Source of the DNA: Bacteroidota bacterium
GTDB lineage: Bacteria; Bacteroidota; Bacteroidia; AKYH767-A; OLB10
Reading direction: 5' to 3'
NCBI GenBank assembly: GCA_024638565.1
Contig: JAHEKC010000014.1
Coordinates: forward strand, 1 to 42,334
DNA: 42,334 nucleotides
Position 1 is the stretch's first letter. The number at the start of each line of letters is the position of its first letter. The translations under genes were made by a program, and so were the position numbers. The notes under the pieces are model-generated. The model had not been told where the DNA came from and made no database searches. It saw nothing but the letters and a program-made list of their open reading frames with translations. Below, piece by piece: positions 1-7,465 of the stretch.

Positions 1-1959
1 CGCTGCCTTGCCGGCGCTGGTGCGGCCGTAACCCATGGCCACAGCCACCGTGTGGTCTGCCAGGCCGGGTTGTACGAGTACCGGTCCGCGAAGTATGGTA
101 TCCCCCACCTTCACTTCGATCACGTTGCCCTGCCGGAGGCCTTTCTCTTTTGCATACGTGATGGATACTGCGAAGTAATTGTCCCAGGTGATCTTTGAAA
201 TGGGATCCGGAAGTTCCTGCAGCCAGGGGTTGTTGGCCTGTGACCCGTTACCCATGGATACCTTTTCATATATCACCACATCCACCCCGCTGCTTTTCCT
301 GGAAACGATCGAAGCCGCGGCTTCAGCAATATTTCCGGCAAAGGCAGGAGACGTCTTTTCAATCGCAGGATCACTGTACACGCCAGTCTGCAAAACCTTC
401 ATCCAGTCACCTTCCGTGGCGAACGGACCCAGGCGTACTTTCCATTCGTCCACCAGGAGCCGGTGGTAATCCGTCGATTCCGTACCGGACCATGCCAGCA
501 GGCTCTGCTGGGCCTGGCGGGTATTGAAAAGGGGGCGGATGGTCGGCTGGGTGGTGCTGAACAACCCGCGGAAAGGCTCGGCGTCATTCCACGACTCCAG
601 GTAATGATGATCCGGGCATATATACTTGCAGCGGCCGGCGGTTTCGTCTGCACGGTCGGCGAACGATACGGTCAGCGGCACTTTCTTGAGTGATTTCGCG
701 AATGCCTTGCCGCCGGGCAGATGGTAGACCGGGTTGGCATTATAAATGATGAGGGCCTGCACCTCGCCGGATTCTATCTCGCGGGCCAGCGCTTCCATGG
801 CCGCATCATCACCCTGGTGGAGGTTACAATAGCGGTCCATGTCTATGGTGGAGGCATAACTATTCAGCAGGTGGTTGATGCCGGCAGCTACCACCTGGTC
901 CTGGATATCGTTGGATCCTGAAACCACCAGTGCGTGGCCTTTCTGCCGCCACAGCTCGGCTGCCACCTTTTGGATCTCCTCACGAATGCCGGTCTTCGCA
1001 TTTCCAGCCTGTGGTGCGCCGGAAACGGAAGCAATGGCATTATAAAGTTCTACCAGCGCCGCACCGTGTTCGGCAGCCTTCATCTTCACCCGCTTGTCCG
1101 CATTGGCACCGGCGAGTGACATGTTGGCCTCGAACTGGACATGGCGCGACATCTCCTTCTTTTTCTTTCCCAGCCTTCGCGTGATGGCATATTGCCTGCT
1201 ATATTCCGCCGGCAGGATCCAGTTACCCAGGAAGTCGCATTCGAAACCCACGATCATGCGTGCCAGGTCGAACCGGTATCCCGGAATGACGGCTTTGCCG
1301 AAACACCGCTCATGTGCCTTGCGGATGCCGTGAAAGGAGGTCCCGTCGTACTGGATATGCCTGGTGGTGGGATGCTTTTCGATAAACTGCCCGATGACCT
1401 TCTTCGTTGCGGGGCTGATCACAGATCCGGACAGAATCCTGATGTTGCCCTGTGCCGCATCGATCTCAGCAAGTTTTTTGTTGATGGCTTCATCGGCCTT
1501 TTCCCAGGTGGTGGCGGAGCCATCAGCCGTGGGGTCCTGCAGCCTTACGCTGTCATACAGCCCGAGCACTGATGCCTGCGTCCTTGCGCTCGTACCGGCA
1601 GGACTTACGGGACTTTTCCCGTTCGCTTCGATCTTGATGGGCCTGCCTTCCCGTGTCTTGACCAGCACAGGGGAGAAATCACGTCCGTCATAATAGGTAG
1701 AGGCGTAAAAGTTGGGAATCCCGGGTACGATTTCCTCAGGTTTTACAAGGTACGGGATGGCCTTGTTGACAGGCGCCTTGCATGCGGCCAGCGAAGCGGC
1801 CGCTACCCCGAAACCCATGTACTTGAGAAAATCGCGTCGGGGCGTGGTGGAAGGTTCGTCCCTCAGGGGCAGTAATTCCGCGAACTCGTTGTCGCGCTGC
1901 TTTACGAATTCAGGGTCGTTATGCAGTTCGGGTAATCCCTTCCAGTATTTCTTTTCCAT
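1..1959 (-). CDS. actB: Alternative complex III subunit ActB, N-terminal 653 residues (C-terminus beyond window)
   Basis: ActB is the large periplasmic subunit of alternative complex III, which oxidises menaquinol and passes electrons to cytochrome c or directly to an oxidase. The N-terminus carries a twin-arginine motif (RRDFLKYMGF, residues 41-50), then a hydrophobic stretch ending in LAAC with Cys60, which could be a lipobox. The body resembles the molybdopterin-oxidoreductase fold (segments such as NPWLQELPDPISKI and VAMGYGRTSAGKAA near the window edge). In this family that fold has lost the molybdenum cofactor and is structural. The ATG at 1959 lies 29 bp after the actA stop, so the two are probably co-transcribed. 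The frame is open to base 1 with no stop. The iron-sulphur (ActB2) part, if fused as is usual in Bacteroidota, lies outside. The alternative of a catalytic Mo enzyme is unlikely given the actA neighbour. Confidence 0.93.
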   Translation of the reverse strand, partial: MEKKYWKGLPELHNDPEFVKQRDNEFAELLPLRDEPSTTPRRDFLKYMGFGVAAASLAACKAPVNKAIPYLVKPEEIVPGIPNFYASTYYDGRDFSPVLVKTREGRPIKIEANGKSPVSPAGTSARTQASVLGLYDSVRLQDPTADGSATTWEKADEAINKKLAEIDAAQGNIRILSGSVISPATKKVIGQFIEKHPTTRHIQYDGTSFHGIRKAHERCFGKAVIPGYRFDLARMIVGFECDFLGNWILPAEYSRQYAITRRLGKKKKEMSRHVQFEANMSLAGANADKRVKMKAAEHGAALVELYNAIASVSGAPQAGNAKTGIREEIQKVAAELWRQKGHALVVSGSNDIQDQVVAAGINHLLNSYASTIDMDRYCNLHQGDDAAMEALAREIESGEVQALIIYNANPVYHLPGGKAFAKSLKKVPLTVSFADRADETAGRCKYICPDHHYLESWNDAEPFRGLFSTTQPTIRPLFNTRQAQQSLLAWSGTESTDYHRLLVDEWKVRLGPFATEGDWMKVLQTGVYSDPAIEKTSPAFAGNIAEAAASIVSRKSSGVDVVIYEKVSMGNGSQANNPWLQELPDPISKITWDNYFAVSITYAKEKGLRQGNVIEVKVGDTILRGPVLVQPGLADHTVAVAMGYGRTSAGKAA

Positions 1960-3439: not shown

Positions 3440-3892
3440 ATGGAGTCTAACCGTTCGGTTCTTGCCTGGATTCTGAGACTGATTCATGGCCCTGCCGGAA
3501 TACTGATATTGATCATGTGCCTGTCCGGGATCGCCGGGCCTGCCGGGGCGGGATACCGGTCCCAGACGGACGACAGCCTGGCCCAGGCGCTGGTCCGGAA
3601 GCATATAAGGCTCAACGCCATGAAGATGTCCATGCCCGGGTACCGCGTCCAGATCTACTATGGCGGCACGCGTATGAAAGCCACCGAGATCAAAAGTGCA
3701 TTCATGCGTGATCACCCCGGTGTGGCTACCTACCTCGTGTATCAGCAGCCCAACTTCAAGGTACGCGTGGGAGACTTCGAGACCCGTATGGACGCCCTTC
3801 GCATGCTGGATGATATCCAGGGCGAATACCCCGCTGCTTTTGTGGTGGCCGACGAGGTGTCACTACCGGATTTGAGCCACGTGAAAGAGTAA
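3440..3892 (+). CDS. SPOR-domain protein with N-terminal membrane segment
   Basis: A 150-aa protein. Residues about 12-36 are hydrophobic and end in small residues (GPAGAG), fitting a signal peptide or anchor. The C-terminal half (about 66-140) reads as a SPOR domain: YRVQIYYGG opens it and FKVRVGDF with the RMDALRMLDDI helix closes it. SPOR domains bind denuded peptidoglycan glycan strands, often at division sites, and small SPOR proteins of this shape are common in Bacteroidota. It is divergent from actA across a 203-bp AT-rich gap and has no other gene in its transcription unit. No catalytic residues are expected. The function beyond peptidoglycan binding is inferred from the domain only. 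Confidence 0.75.
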   Translation: MESNRSVLAWILRLIHGPAGILILIMCLSGIAGPAGAGYRSQTDDSLAQALVRKHIRLNAMKMSMPGYRVQIYYGGTRMKATEIKSAFMRDHPGVATYLVYQQPNFKVRVGDFETRMDALRMLDDIQGEYPAAFVVADEVSLPDLSHVKE

Positions 3893-3946
3893 GTGGCAGT
3901 GGCAGTAGCAGTGGCAGTAGCAATGGCAGTGGCAGTGGCAGTGGCA
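3893..3946 (+). repeat. Hexanucleotide tandem repeat, nine GTGGCA-type units
   Basis: Nine consecutive 6-bp units start at the base after the stop codon of the SPOR gene. Six are GTGGCA, two are GTAGCA and one is ATGGCA. Single-base differences between units show some age. Short pieces of the same motif (TGCCAC doublets) occur at about 15510-15520. Because the repeat begins immediately after the stop, unit gain or loss would not change the protein unless the stop were lost. Confidence 0.9.
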
Positions 3947-4036
3947 GTTTTGAGTCAGGGTTCAATTGGGATTTCCCTTTACAACCGGGTTCATTCCAGG
4001 CCGGGGAAGGAAAAACGGCAGCGTGTTTTTGCCATT

Positions 4037-4084
4037 CGTCATTGAGGGAAGTCCCGATGGCAATCGTGACGACGAAGCATCCTC
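4037..4084 (+). repeat. Dispersed-repeat-like element, copy A
   Basis: The segment begins CGTCATTGAGGG and ends GACGACGAAGCATCC, with an imperfect hairpin in the middle (GTCCCGAT / AATCGTGAC). From memory this resembles the widely scattered intergenic family that starts GTCATTGCGAG and ends GAAGCAATCTC. Copy B at 4114-4182 lies in the opposite orientation. I cannot see whether other copies exist in the genome. Confidence 0.55.
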
Positions 4085-4113
4085 TGTCAGTGAAAATAAC
4101 CCGAAGGCAGGTA

Positions 4114-4182
4114 CGTAATCCTCATGAGATTGCCGCGCCCGCTCCTCCCGACATTAGTCGGGATGCCCTTGCTCGCAATGAC
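4114..4182 (-). repeat. Dispersed-repeat-like element, copy B (inverted)
   Basis: Read on the minus strand it starts GGTCATTGCGAGCAAGGG and ends GCGGCAATCTCATGAGG. It carries a strong internal hairpin, TCCCGAC / GTCGGGA with a 4-nt loop (about 4146-4164). The ends match the same family as copy A better than copy A does. The two copies face each other across about 30 bp, so the pair forms an inverted composite between the SPOR gene and the 3' end of the neighbouring minus-strand gene. Confidence 0.6.
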
Positions 4183-4216
4183 CTTTTGCTTGGGCGAACC
4201 GCGCGCTTTGAACTTT

Positions 4217-4708
4217 TCAGGGATTACATGCCACGATACTCGTGGCAAGCACGGAGTCCTTATTCTCCAGGAACAGGATATAAGTCTCCTTGGGAATGGA
4301 TGCCGGTACCTTGCATTGCAAAAAGTTGTCACCGGCTTTCACGGAAAAATTCTCGAACAGCACCACGCTGCCTTTCATGGTCACCAGCTTCATCGAGATA
4401 TCTTCCCGCTTGTCAGAAGTATACCTGGCCGTGATCACTTCGCTGAAGGAGTTCGAAAGCAGCTTGAAGTTTTCGTAGGATACGTCCTCAGTGTTATAAG
4501 GTACATGCGTTCCGCCCTTGTAGTCGCCGGAAGCCGCATTGGTCATTTTGGGAGAGCTGATATTTGTGAGCAAAAACAGGGAAATGCCCGCCACGGAGAT
4601 GACCCCACCGGCAATATATATGTGGATCGTCCGCAGCCGCAGCCTGAACCGCTGGCGCTGGCGCTGTACCGGCGCCTGCCTTTGAACTATGCGTATCCTT
4701 TGTCTCAT
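4217..4708 (-). CDS. Small membrane-anchored protein made of a degenerate T9SS sorting-domain-like module
   Basis: A 163-aa protein. The N-terminus is very basic (QRQRQRFRLRLR) and runs into one hydrophobic segment (about 32-49), followed by a short linker. The last 80 or so residues align without a gap to the C-terminal sorting domain of the next upstream gene (4844-6910). Examples are ISMKLVTMKG against VSLQLLTLEG and PASIPKETYIL against PANINPGIYML. Sorting domains of this kind are normally attached to a large cargo and cleaved during type IX secretion. Here no cargo is attached, and hallmark positions are changed: PNP has become SNS, PGxY has become KETY, and the basic end is replaced by ACNP. 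Both proteins also share the QRQRFRL N-terminus. It is 135 bp downstream of its relative and on the same strand. A role is not known; a remnant of duplication or an anchored decoy are both possible. Confidence 0.7.
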   Translation of the reverse strand: MRQRIRIVQRQAPVQRQRQRFRLRLRTIHIYIAGGVISVAGISLFLLTNISSPKMTNAASGDYKGGTHVPYNTEDVSYENFKLLSNSFSEVITARYTSDKREDISMKLVTMKGSVVLFENFSVKAGDNFLQCKVPASIPKETYILFLENKDSVLATSIVACNP

Positions 4709-4843: not shown

Positions 4844-6910
4844 TCAATGGAACCTCTTTAAAACCTTGGCAGAAGCGACCATGGAGCTTTCATTTGTCAC
4901 GTGGAGCATGTAAATGCCCGGGTTGATATTCGCCGGAAGGCTGAGGCTGATGGAATTGACGCCCTCCCCGGTGACGATGCGCTCATCGTAGATCTTCTTT
5001 CCTTCCAGGGTCAGCAATTGAAGGGATACCTCCTCGTTCTGGTCTGCCGTAAACTGGGCGGTCAGGCTTTTGTCGAAGGGATTGGGAAACGCTTTCAGCG
5101 ACCCGGCCCGGACATTACGCAATGGCAGGTTGACCTGCGCGCGGCTGAAGACCTCCGATCTCCCGTTATAATCCGTCTGGCGGAGGCGATACCAGGATAT
5201 ACCCGGCAATGGCTGCTCGTCAGTATGGCCGTACTTGGTAGCCGTGGTGGTCGTCCCCGCGCCCTCCACGCGTGCCACCTCGTCCCACCGCCAGCCGTCA
5301 GCCGATCTTTCAATCGTGAAGTAATCGTTATTGACCTCGCTCATGGTCATCCACTCGAGATCCACCTGGTCATTCACGTTCACCTTGGCCCTGAATGCCG
5401 CCATGGTCACCGGCAATAAGCTGGGTGAATAGTTAAAAGGCACCGAAACTAAATTGAGGCGATTGCATGCATCCGTAATGGTAACGGAAACATATCCAAT
5501 GGTATCGCTCAAGTAATTTAATGGCGTAAAATAGGTTGTTGCCCCGTTGGGATTTGAGAAAACGCCGTTTATAGTGGCTGTCCACTGGAATGTATAGTCC
5601 AAGGTATCTTCCGTTGTTCTGACATATAACAAATGACGTGTCTGGTTATACGATGTGGGGATGGAAAAACTTGAAATATCAGGGGCCTTTTCTATGCCGG
5701 TCAATAGCACATAGTTCAACAATGAGCGTTGCGCTGCCACATGCTCCGGAACCGTACTCAGGCTGTCCGGCCCCCCGGAAAGAATATGGCCACCTGTATA
5801 CATGATCCTGCCATTGTTACTGTTTCCCAAAGCATGTCCGTAAACCATCGCAGCTCCTTTGTAGTCCCCGGCTCCGTCACTCGTTTCAATCAGCAGCTTC
5901 GTTCCCGTACGCCATTTGCCGGTGGTTTGAGGAATATACCATTGCTCAGACCCGTCTTTAGTTACATTATCAAAGGATCCCAAGAATTGCATGACCGGAT
6001 CACCCGGATAGTTATACGAAAATGGTGTTGTCGCAGCGTTTTTATGATCCTGGGATATAGAATCTCCACATGCTCCGGCTTTTTTGAAGCACTGCAGGCC
6101 GTCACTAGCAAGAAAAGACATTCTTACTGCAGTCGTTGTTGCATTAATCGACATAGTGCCAGAAAGACCCTCCAGGACACTAGGTGCATGGCACTGGCTC
6201 CATATGTTTCCCTTCCATTCGGTAGCAAACTTGTAAAGGTTTGAATGTGAGTTAAAGTCAGGATCAGCATGAGGGTTAATCCACAAGTCCATGCATTCGG
6301 TTAAATCATCCGGGGCCCCGAAAGAATAAGCAGAATCAGGGATACCTGCATTCTGAAAGTAAGTTTCCCCAAGGTATCCAAAACCTGCCAACGTGTCTAT
6401 AATTATATTGGGAAATCTAGTTAGCATTTCATAAACAGGTACACTAATACTGGATGTCGTGTAAACACCCGTGACACCTTGTGTCTGCCAGGAAGCTATA
6501 ACATCTGTAACCGGCTTGATCATGAATCCAGCATCAATGATAAAAGCGCTTCCTTTATAATCAGTGCCGTCATAGCTAAAATCAGCGCCGTCCTTGGATT
6601 TCGTCGTGTCAATTACCCAGTAAACCGGCACTTTATGGTCAGTCATCAATTCGTAGACCATCCCGTAGGGCAGCAACCCATTTTCATACGTCTGCGGCGT
6701 GATTCCCATGTTCACGATAAAGGACCCTGGCGTAAAGGTGGATAGTGCAGGTGCCGCTTTTGCATCACGCATTTCCGCTAGCTGATGCAGTGCTGTAAGC
6801 TTGATAAATACCGCTAAAAAGAACCCCATGGACGCAGCAACCAGGACCGGCTTGGCCGTTAGCCTGAAACGCTGTCTCTGCCTTGGGTTCATGCTAAGTT
6901 TTTTTCTCAT
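4844..6910 (-). CDS. Secreted T9SS cargo protein with unnamed conserved N-terminal domain
   Basis: A 688-aa exported protein. A basic start (MRKKLSMNPRQRQRFRL) precedes a hydrophobic segment at about 21-45, acting as signal peptide or anchor. Residues about 57-400 form a domain I recognise as recurrent in Bacteroidota secreted proteins but cannot name. It includes GITPQTYENGLLPYGMVYEL, VPVYWVID, INPHADPD and WSQCHAPSVLEG; the last resembles a Cys-His site, but that is only an impression. An Ig-like region follows (about 500-600: LPVTMAAF, NNDYFTIERS, WYRLRQTDYNG). The final part is a type A T9SS sorting domain (about 606-688, with FPNPFD and PANINPGIYML). The product should cross the outer membrane and lose the sorting domain. 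It lies 135 bp upstream of the small sorting-domain-like gene. Confidence 0.85.
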   Translation of the reverse strand: MRKKLSMNPRQRQRFRLTAKPVLVAASMGFFLAVFIKLTALHQLAEMRDAKAAPALSTFTPGSFIVNMGITPQTYENGLLPYGMVYELMTDHKVPVYWVIDTTKSKDGADFSYDGTDYKGSAFIIDAGFMIKPVTDVIASWQTQGVTGVYTTSSISVPVYEMLTRFPNIIIDTLAGFGYLGETYFQNAGIPDSAYSFGAPDDLTECMDLWINPHADPDFNSHSNLYKFATEWKGNIWSQCHAPSVLEGLSGTMSINATTTAVRMSFLASDGLQCFKKAGACGDSISQDHKNAATTPFSYNYPGDPVMQFLGSFDNVTKDGSEQWYIPQTTGKWRTGTKLLIETSDGAGDYKGAAMVYGHALGNSNNGRIMYTGGHILSGGPDSLSTVPEHVAAQRSLLNYVLLTGIEKAPDISSFSIPTSYNQTRHLLYVRTTEDTLDYTFQWTATINGVFSNPNGATTYFTPLNYLSDTIGYVSVTITDACNRLNLVSVPFNYSPSLLPVTMAAFRAKVNVNDQVDLEWMTMSEVNNDYFTIERSADGWRWDEVARVEGAGTTTTATKYGHTDEQPLPGISWYRLRQTDYNGRSEVFSRAQVNLPLRNVRAGSLKAFPNPFDKSLTAQFTADQNEEVSLQLLTLEGKKIYDERIVTGEGVNSISLSLPANINPGIYMLHVTNESSMVASAKVLKRFH

Positions 6911-7465
6911 TTCGACTGTTTTGTTTGTTATCTTACGCAGGCTGACTGAAATAGTTGCCTTGATTTTGAATTTATACTATTGATTATCAGTGTGCTATGT
7001 GTATTTGCAATAGTCGTCCGGAGACTGCAGCCATCCGCAGGGCTAAATATATAAGTGGCTGTTGATCAGCCGGATGTTGTGAGGCAGGGAGACCTCTTGA
7101 TACCGGACTCTTTAGCGCGGGCCAGGAGCCGCCGGTCTGAATACCTGCTTCATCTCTAATCATCGTTGATCGCTCCAGGACAAGACTGCCGCTACAAATG
7201 CAAGAATGCTGCCCAACCGTTCAGTCATGAGGCGGGGGTGGTTGTAAGAAAACCGGGGTTCCGGTTTGGTTTTACCTGCCCCATATCGCTTCGGATCCCG
7301 TAACTGCCTGGTGAATGCGAAAAGCATGAGCCCCTGCCTGATTCACCTTAACCGGTCATGTTGTAACGAACGGATCCGAATAGGTGCAGGAATATTTAAA
7401 AAACTTGTTGGAATTGCCTCACGGGCATGGAAAAGCCGTTAAAAACGGAATGGGACAGCACTTTC
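6911..7465. other. Gene-poor intergenic stretch
   Basis: This 555-bp stretch lies upstream of the T9SS cargo gene and downstream of the biotin-carrier gene. I see no convincing gene, tRNA or repeat family. It contains a small hairpin GGCTG/CAGCC at 7057-7071. No exact TAnnTTTG box is evident at a normal distance from the cargo gene start. Whether it holds a long leader or a small RNA cannot be decided from sequence. Confidence 0.5.
7436..7448 (-). terminator. Weak terminator-like hairpin after biotin carrier gene
   Basis: On the minus strand CCGTT-TTT-AACGG is followed by CTTTTCC, 17 nt beyond the stop codon of the biotin carrier gene. The stem is only 5 bp and the T tract is short. Confidence 0.25.

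Follow-up and report, generated by a model that had tools for sequence, protein, structure and literature searches.

A stand-alone T9SS sorting domain, probably no longer a working sorting signal, encoded beside its cargo-bearing relative

What is a T9SS sorting domain doing on a protein that carries no cargo, next to a full-length relative that does? The question is raised by two adjacent genes in a 42,334-nucleotide stretch of DNA (the window), which is contig 39 of a metagenome-derived Bacteroidota genome (3.02 Mb, 165 contigs, 97% complete, ~2% contamination), the only member of its genus in the comparison set. The small protein, P0001, is encoded 135 bp downstream of the cargo protein P0002 on the same strand (Table 1). 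A first-pass annotation of the DNA had described P0001 as a stand-alone, membrane-anchored, degenerate sorting domain, either a decayed duplicate or a product that binds or competes for the proteins recognising sorting domains. Since the genome has PorU (1358 bits), a T9SS is expected in the source organism. The reading we prefer, with about even confidence, is that P0001 is a lineage-restricted, Sec-exported derivative of a P0002-like cargo that consists of the sorting domain (CTD) only, is folded, and is probably not a working sorting signal and probably retained in the periplasm.

Table 1. Features of P0001 and P0002 in the window.
Feature	Position	Strand	Basis or remark
P0001, stand-alone CTD protein, 163 aa	4217..4708	-	coding score and CTD relationship
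CTD-like seven-strand sandwich of P0001 (residues 79-163)	4220..4474	-	PNP to SNS, GxY to ETY, basic end to ACNP
Predicted signal peptidase I site TNA/A of P0001 (residues 56-58)	4535..4543	-	sequence comparison, inference
Hydrophobic segment of predicted P0001 signal peptide (residues 30-50)	4559..4621	-	hydropathy; gap-free to P0002, C161 and C9 leaders
RQRQRFRL, end of Arg/Gln-rich n-region of P0001 (residues 16-23)	4640..4663	-	sequence comparison
P0002, T9SS cargo, 688 aa, Por_Secre_tail CTD	4844..6910	-	TIGR04183 E 1.2e-8; PF18962 E 6e-7
P0002 CTD (residues 604-688)	4847..5101	-	genome's closest relative of P0001 CTD
RQRQRFRL of P0002 (residues 10-17)	6860..6883	-	sequence comparison

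The frame of P0001 is intact, as the first-pass annotation had stated, with an ATG start and 163 codons without a stop or frameshift. Its length is weak evidence, since an ORF as long was found in 6.7% of shuffles of a 951-bp stretch. The codon score of 0.266, as compared with a wrong-frame mean of -0.195, was reached by 0.35% of wrong-frame windows, and the 245-aa antisense ORF scored -0.069 and looks non-coding. The composition of P0001 matches that of the contig, and its codons, also in the CTD, are used as elsewhere in the genome. Overall, the P0001 ORF looks coding. No promoter-like site was found on the minus strand near or upstream of P0001, and the 138-nt stretch between P0002 and P0001 folded no better than its shuffles (z -0.62). 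The surroundings contain repeats of two kinds. Parts of the intergenic segment at window positions 4030-4216 recur at four other places in the genome (22-59 bp with 80-100% identity), so that the segment is perhaps a small dispersed repeat; at 3892-3948, 9.5 copies of the hexamer AGTGGC lie at the stop codon of a SPOR-domain gene (3440-3892).

The last ~80 residues of P0001 had been said to align without a gap to the sorting domain of the neighbour, and the comparison agreed: P0001 residues 80-159 and P0002 residues 604-683 form 80 gap-free columns with 30% identity (pairwise E = 2e-12). In a whole-genome search with P0001, the P0002 CTD was the best match (E 1.4e-9), followed by those of two paralogues named here after their contigs, C52 (1.4e-7), a P0002 homologue 44% identical to it, and C161 (1.2e-5). 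Against 112 CTDs of the genome, P0002, C52 and C161 scored 42, 36 and 30 bits and the next one 10; a genome-specific CTD model built without P0001 gave P0001 21.5 bits. By these scores the P0001 CTD falls in the clade of P0002, C52 and C161, far from the other ~109 sampled CTDs, with its exact sister not pinned down in a tree of 20 sequences (deep-node support 15-31%). The Por_Secre_tail models in Pfam and NCBIfam, both of which P0002 passes, did not match P0001 up to E 10. At the DNA level, no long match between the two genes was found beyond the overlap deliberately put in the query. The cargo is absent, in line with the original description of a stand-alone domain: about 20 residues separate the predicted cut site from the CTD, and P0001 holds no cargo domain and no domain beyond leader and CTD. 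An SGDYKGG in this linker resembles GDYKG of P0002, but at E 0.1-0.15 no claim of a cargo remnant is made.

The structure predictions agree with this kinship. AlphaFold2, run with a 31-sequence alignment, placed P0001 residues 81-163 at pLDDT 90-98, with strands at 81-83, 91-98, 102-110, 115-123, 126-133, 142-148 and 153-161. For the P0002 CTD, a separate AlphaFold2 run gave the same set of seven at corresponding offsets (mean pLDDT 93.7), and the unrelated fold that would have spoken against the relationship was not seen. Based on the models, P0001 is predicted to keep the complete seven-strand Ig-like CTD sandwich. The top Foldseek matches of both models are generic Ig/FN3-like domains, so it is by sequence kinship that the P0001 domain is identified as a CTD. 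Solved T9SS CTDs were matched by a profile made from the P0001 alignment (8glk, E 1.4e-7; mirolase 8qb1, 4e-6; 8glj, 4.5e-4; RgpB 5hfs, 0.04), although this profile favours P0001 because its members were collected by similarity to P0001.

The residues by which CTDs are recognised fared differently. P0001 has SNS for PNP, ETY for GxY, and the end SIVACNP as compared with KVLKRFH in P0002; its last strand is without lysine, and it retains the beta3-beta4 glycine (G113). Among the 112 CTDs of the genome, a sample biased by its selection with a CTD model, PNP or PTP occurs in 94, GxY in 109 and a basic residue in the last five positions in 96, and none lacks all three. The alteration of the hallmarks noted at first was thus confirmed. 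Secretion by way of type A CTDs requires their last 13 residues and the lysines of motif E, and contact with PorV/PorM is made by motifs B, D and E (PMC10202324). RgpB without its last two residues stays in the periplasm, and the beta3-beta4 glycine has been reported as needed for recognition (PMC11285876). Because the last-strand lysine, PNP, GxY and the basic end are lost, P0001 is probably a poor or dead T9SS sorting signal. The term degenerate applies to recognition, in which three hallmarks are gone and no Pfam or NCBIfam model matches, but not to the fold: of the 25 columns that are hydrophobic in all three full-length paralogues, 23 are hydrophobic in P0001 (binomial p 1.4e-6).

The N-terminus also ties P0001 to its neighbour. 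The rare QRQRFRL start said to be common to both proteins is part of an exact 8-mer, RQRQRFRL, as compared with a longest shared word of 6 in 20,000 shuffles of both 30-residue N-termini, and the codon pattern of QRQRFRL occurs twice in the 3.0-Mb genome, in the P0001 and P0002 genes only. In P0001 the site overlaps a CGCTGG hexamer repeat on the plus strand (4650-4666). From the F of FRL to the cut site there are 38 residues, gap-free in P0001, P0002 and C161, with predicted sites TNA/A, AKA/A and AKA/A, respectively. Related leaders are found in C161 (QKQRLRL), C9 (QRQRVRL), C96 and C52, and in cargo-like proteins of other genera. P0001 has the predicted features of a Sec signal peptide, namely a basic n-region, a hydrophobic core, and a TNA/A site aligned to those of cargo leaders. 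As the aligned leaders belong to ordinary CTD proteins expected to leave the inner membrane, the hydrophobic stretch is probably a signal peptide that can be cut off, and less probably an anchor. The proposal of an anchored membrane protein was set aside as probably wrong.

Several observations concern this leader beyond P0001. Some of the T9SS cargo proteins of this genome, and of other genera within the order, carry an Arg/Gln-rich extended n-region of the [QK]RxRxRL-like kind (loci L093, L094, L061, L067, L069 and L155), and it ends ~38 residues before the AxA site in the three best-aligned leaders. Most other cargo has short ordinary leaders. The Arg/Gln-rich n-region may mark a separate class of leader, similar in concept to the YSIRK or ESPR leaders. 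Locus L255 in genome G013 encodes, at 1288-1578 (minus strand), a 96-aa protein that has this Arg-rich type of leader but no CTD, 42 bp upstream of a same-strand gene for a product of at least 415 aa whose end lies outside the locus. A third match to the QRQRFR pattern, in G003, was rejected, no P0001-like gene being among the ORFs given for that locus.

The first-pass annotation had suggested looking for conservation of the domain-only architecture and of the gene pair across relatives. Neither was found. No P0001 homologue of similar length was present in 100 relatives or in 24 family, 42 order and 395 class genomes, and none was confirmed in a GTDB r220 scan with P0001, from which the source genome was possibly left out. 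The short CTD-matching frames of relatives either were fragments at contig ends or contained stops. Within the source genome, several of the other short CTD-matching frames are cut by contig ends; of those examined, the smallest that seems complete has 200 aa. No P0001-like gene lies beside the P0002 homologues, which speaks against a conserved pair, and the family does not preserve the RNase R neighbourhood. As far as searched, the architecture of P0001 is restricted to the source genome. The lack of a similar-length orthologue in the genomes searched, which leaves conservation of P0001 without support, counts against the preferred reading.

How, then, might such a protein have arisen, and what would become of it? 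In the preferred reading, a tandem paralogue of a P0002-type cargo would have lost the cargo and the Ig/FN3-like domains while the leader and CTD were kept, so that an Arg/Gln-rich Sec signal peptide came to be joined through ~20 residues to a stand-alone type A CTD. The product would be exported by Sec, cleaved after TNA58 and folded in the periplasm as an Ig-like sandwich of ~105 aa. With the PNP, GxY and basic C-terminal features gone, it would stay there.

The main rival, possible though tentatively held, is a young pseudogene, in which an internal deletion removed the middle of a P0002-type cargo and left an in-frame fusion of leader and CTD that is drifting, the hallmark losses being its first neutral changes. 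The orphan status of P0001 in the family, order and class genomes, the joint loss of three hallmarks, unlike any sampled CTD, the repeat-rich intergenic region downstream and the absence of a promoter-like pattern upstream are what this reading would expect. The uninterrupted frame, the genome-typical codon usage of the CTD and the retained core speak against it, as does the substitution pattern. Between P0001 and P0002, pN (0.49) was lower than pS (0.67; bootstrap P 0.02), in pairwise comparisons near saturation, and pN from paralogue to paralogue is 0.49-0.51. These values fit a domain whose evolution was mostly constrained by its fold; they carry no date for the loss of cargo, a recent relaxation is possible, and selection that acted while the cargo was still present may account for pN being below pS. 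The decayed duplicate of the first-pass annotation is thus partly upheld: P0001 belongs to the P0002 clade and has lost its cargo, but with fold core and codon usage intact and pN as among paralogues, its decay is limited or recent, if there is any. P0001 may also have no function left.

Small CTD proteins are known already. Fjoh_0547 of Flavobacterium johnsoniae, a 112-aa CTD protein, was found in culture supernatants without SprA or PorV according to the account cited in PMC7712824, so periplasmic retention of P0001 is not certain. Along this line, P0001 could be a mini-cargo, a small surface or secreted protein that, consisting of a CTD only, gets to the cell surface or into the medium by some path other than the T9SS channel. 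We consider this unlikely. The two very small CTD-containing proteins are alike in size and layout as Fjoh_0547 is cited there, and the leader and fold of P0001 are predicted to be intact, but the likeness is by description and not by sequence, and the hallmark losses of P0001 have no known counterpart in that description.

PorA (PGN_0123) of Porphyromonas gingivalis is a 246-aa protein with a FimH-like N-terminal domain and a CTD that binds PorV, and its regulatory role was shown by mutants (PMC7712824). P0001 resembles it as a small CTD protein without an enzyme domain but lacks the FimH-like domain, and nothing points to regulation. PorA is a precedent for a small CTD protein that affects T9SS gene expression (PMC7712824), and P0001 might likewise act as a decoy or regulator by mimicking a sorting domain; it would bind PorV, PorM or PorU unprocessed and tune the secretion of P0002 or the T9SS, somewhat as PorA feeds PorXY-SigP. 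Its place downstream of a cargo gene on the same strand and the kept CTD fold with G113 would suit such a role. However, it is the motifs with a reported PorV/PorM contact (B, D and E) that are lost, the pairing is not conserved at P0002 homologues, and the PorA-like lectin domain is missing, which makes the role improbable. Slightly more doubtful still is a cargo-free mimic kept by selection, which would stay in the periplasm, bind the recognition parts of the T9SS from there and tune secretion of the neighbouring cargo or of the whole system; the competition for recognition proteins proposed at first was not supported, contact residues being lost and neither pair nor architecture recurring. 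An assembly or binning artefact, which a genome in 165 contigs with ~2% contamination might invite, is hardly credible, because P0001 fits the composition of its contig and, at 30% identity or less to any other CTD in the genome and with residues absent from P0002, is not a collapsed copy.

Compared with T9SS type A cargo (TIGR04183/PF18962), P0001 shares the Sec-type leader, the C-terminal ~80-residue Ig-like seven-strand sandwich and the gap-free alignment to P0002, but lacks a cargo or pre-CTD domain, a model match, PNP, GxY and basic C-terminal residues. Small CTD proteins as a kind being known from Fjoh_0547 and PorA, what marks P0001 as a variant is the absence of cargo combined with the loss of all three hallmarks. 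Provided that P0001 is produced and stable, it offers a natural experiment on the CTD features that are read by the T9SS, with the fold and the beta3-beta4 glycine kept and PNP, GxY and the basic end lost. A functional P0001 would be a rare case of a CTD that has its own role in the absence of cargo; as a relic, it would show what becomes of sorting domains in genomes that contain over 100, where they can be left behind. The weight of P0001 is limited, as it is an isolated orphan in one metagenome-derived genome.

The neighbour P0002 has features of its own. Its N-terminal ~330 residues, with invariant NPH.DP, QCH and GSE blocks, had no Pfam or NCBIfam match. Third-position GC is 0.35-0.48 over much of the cargo part and 0.68-0.77 in the C-terminal part, and because of this shift the cargo portion may have a history different from that of its tail. 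Seven homologues of P0002 were aligned and an eighth was found in G035, all from the same order (loci L061-L066 and L155). In locus L155 of G035, a P0002 homologue of another family forms a divergent pair with a 367-aa protein bearing a CTD-like end (3524-4627, minus strand, and 4968-6995, plus strand), and both proteins of the pair have Arg-rich extended N-termini.
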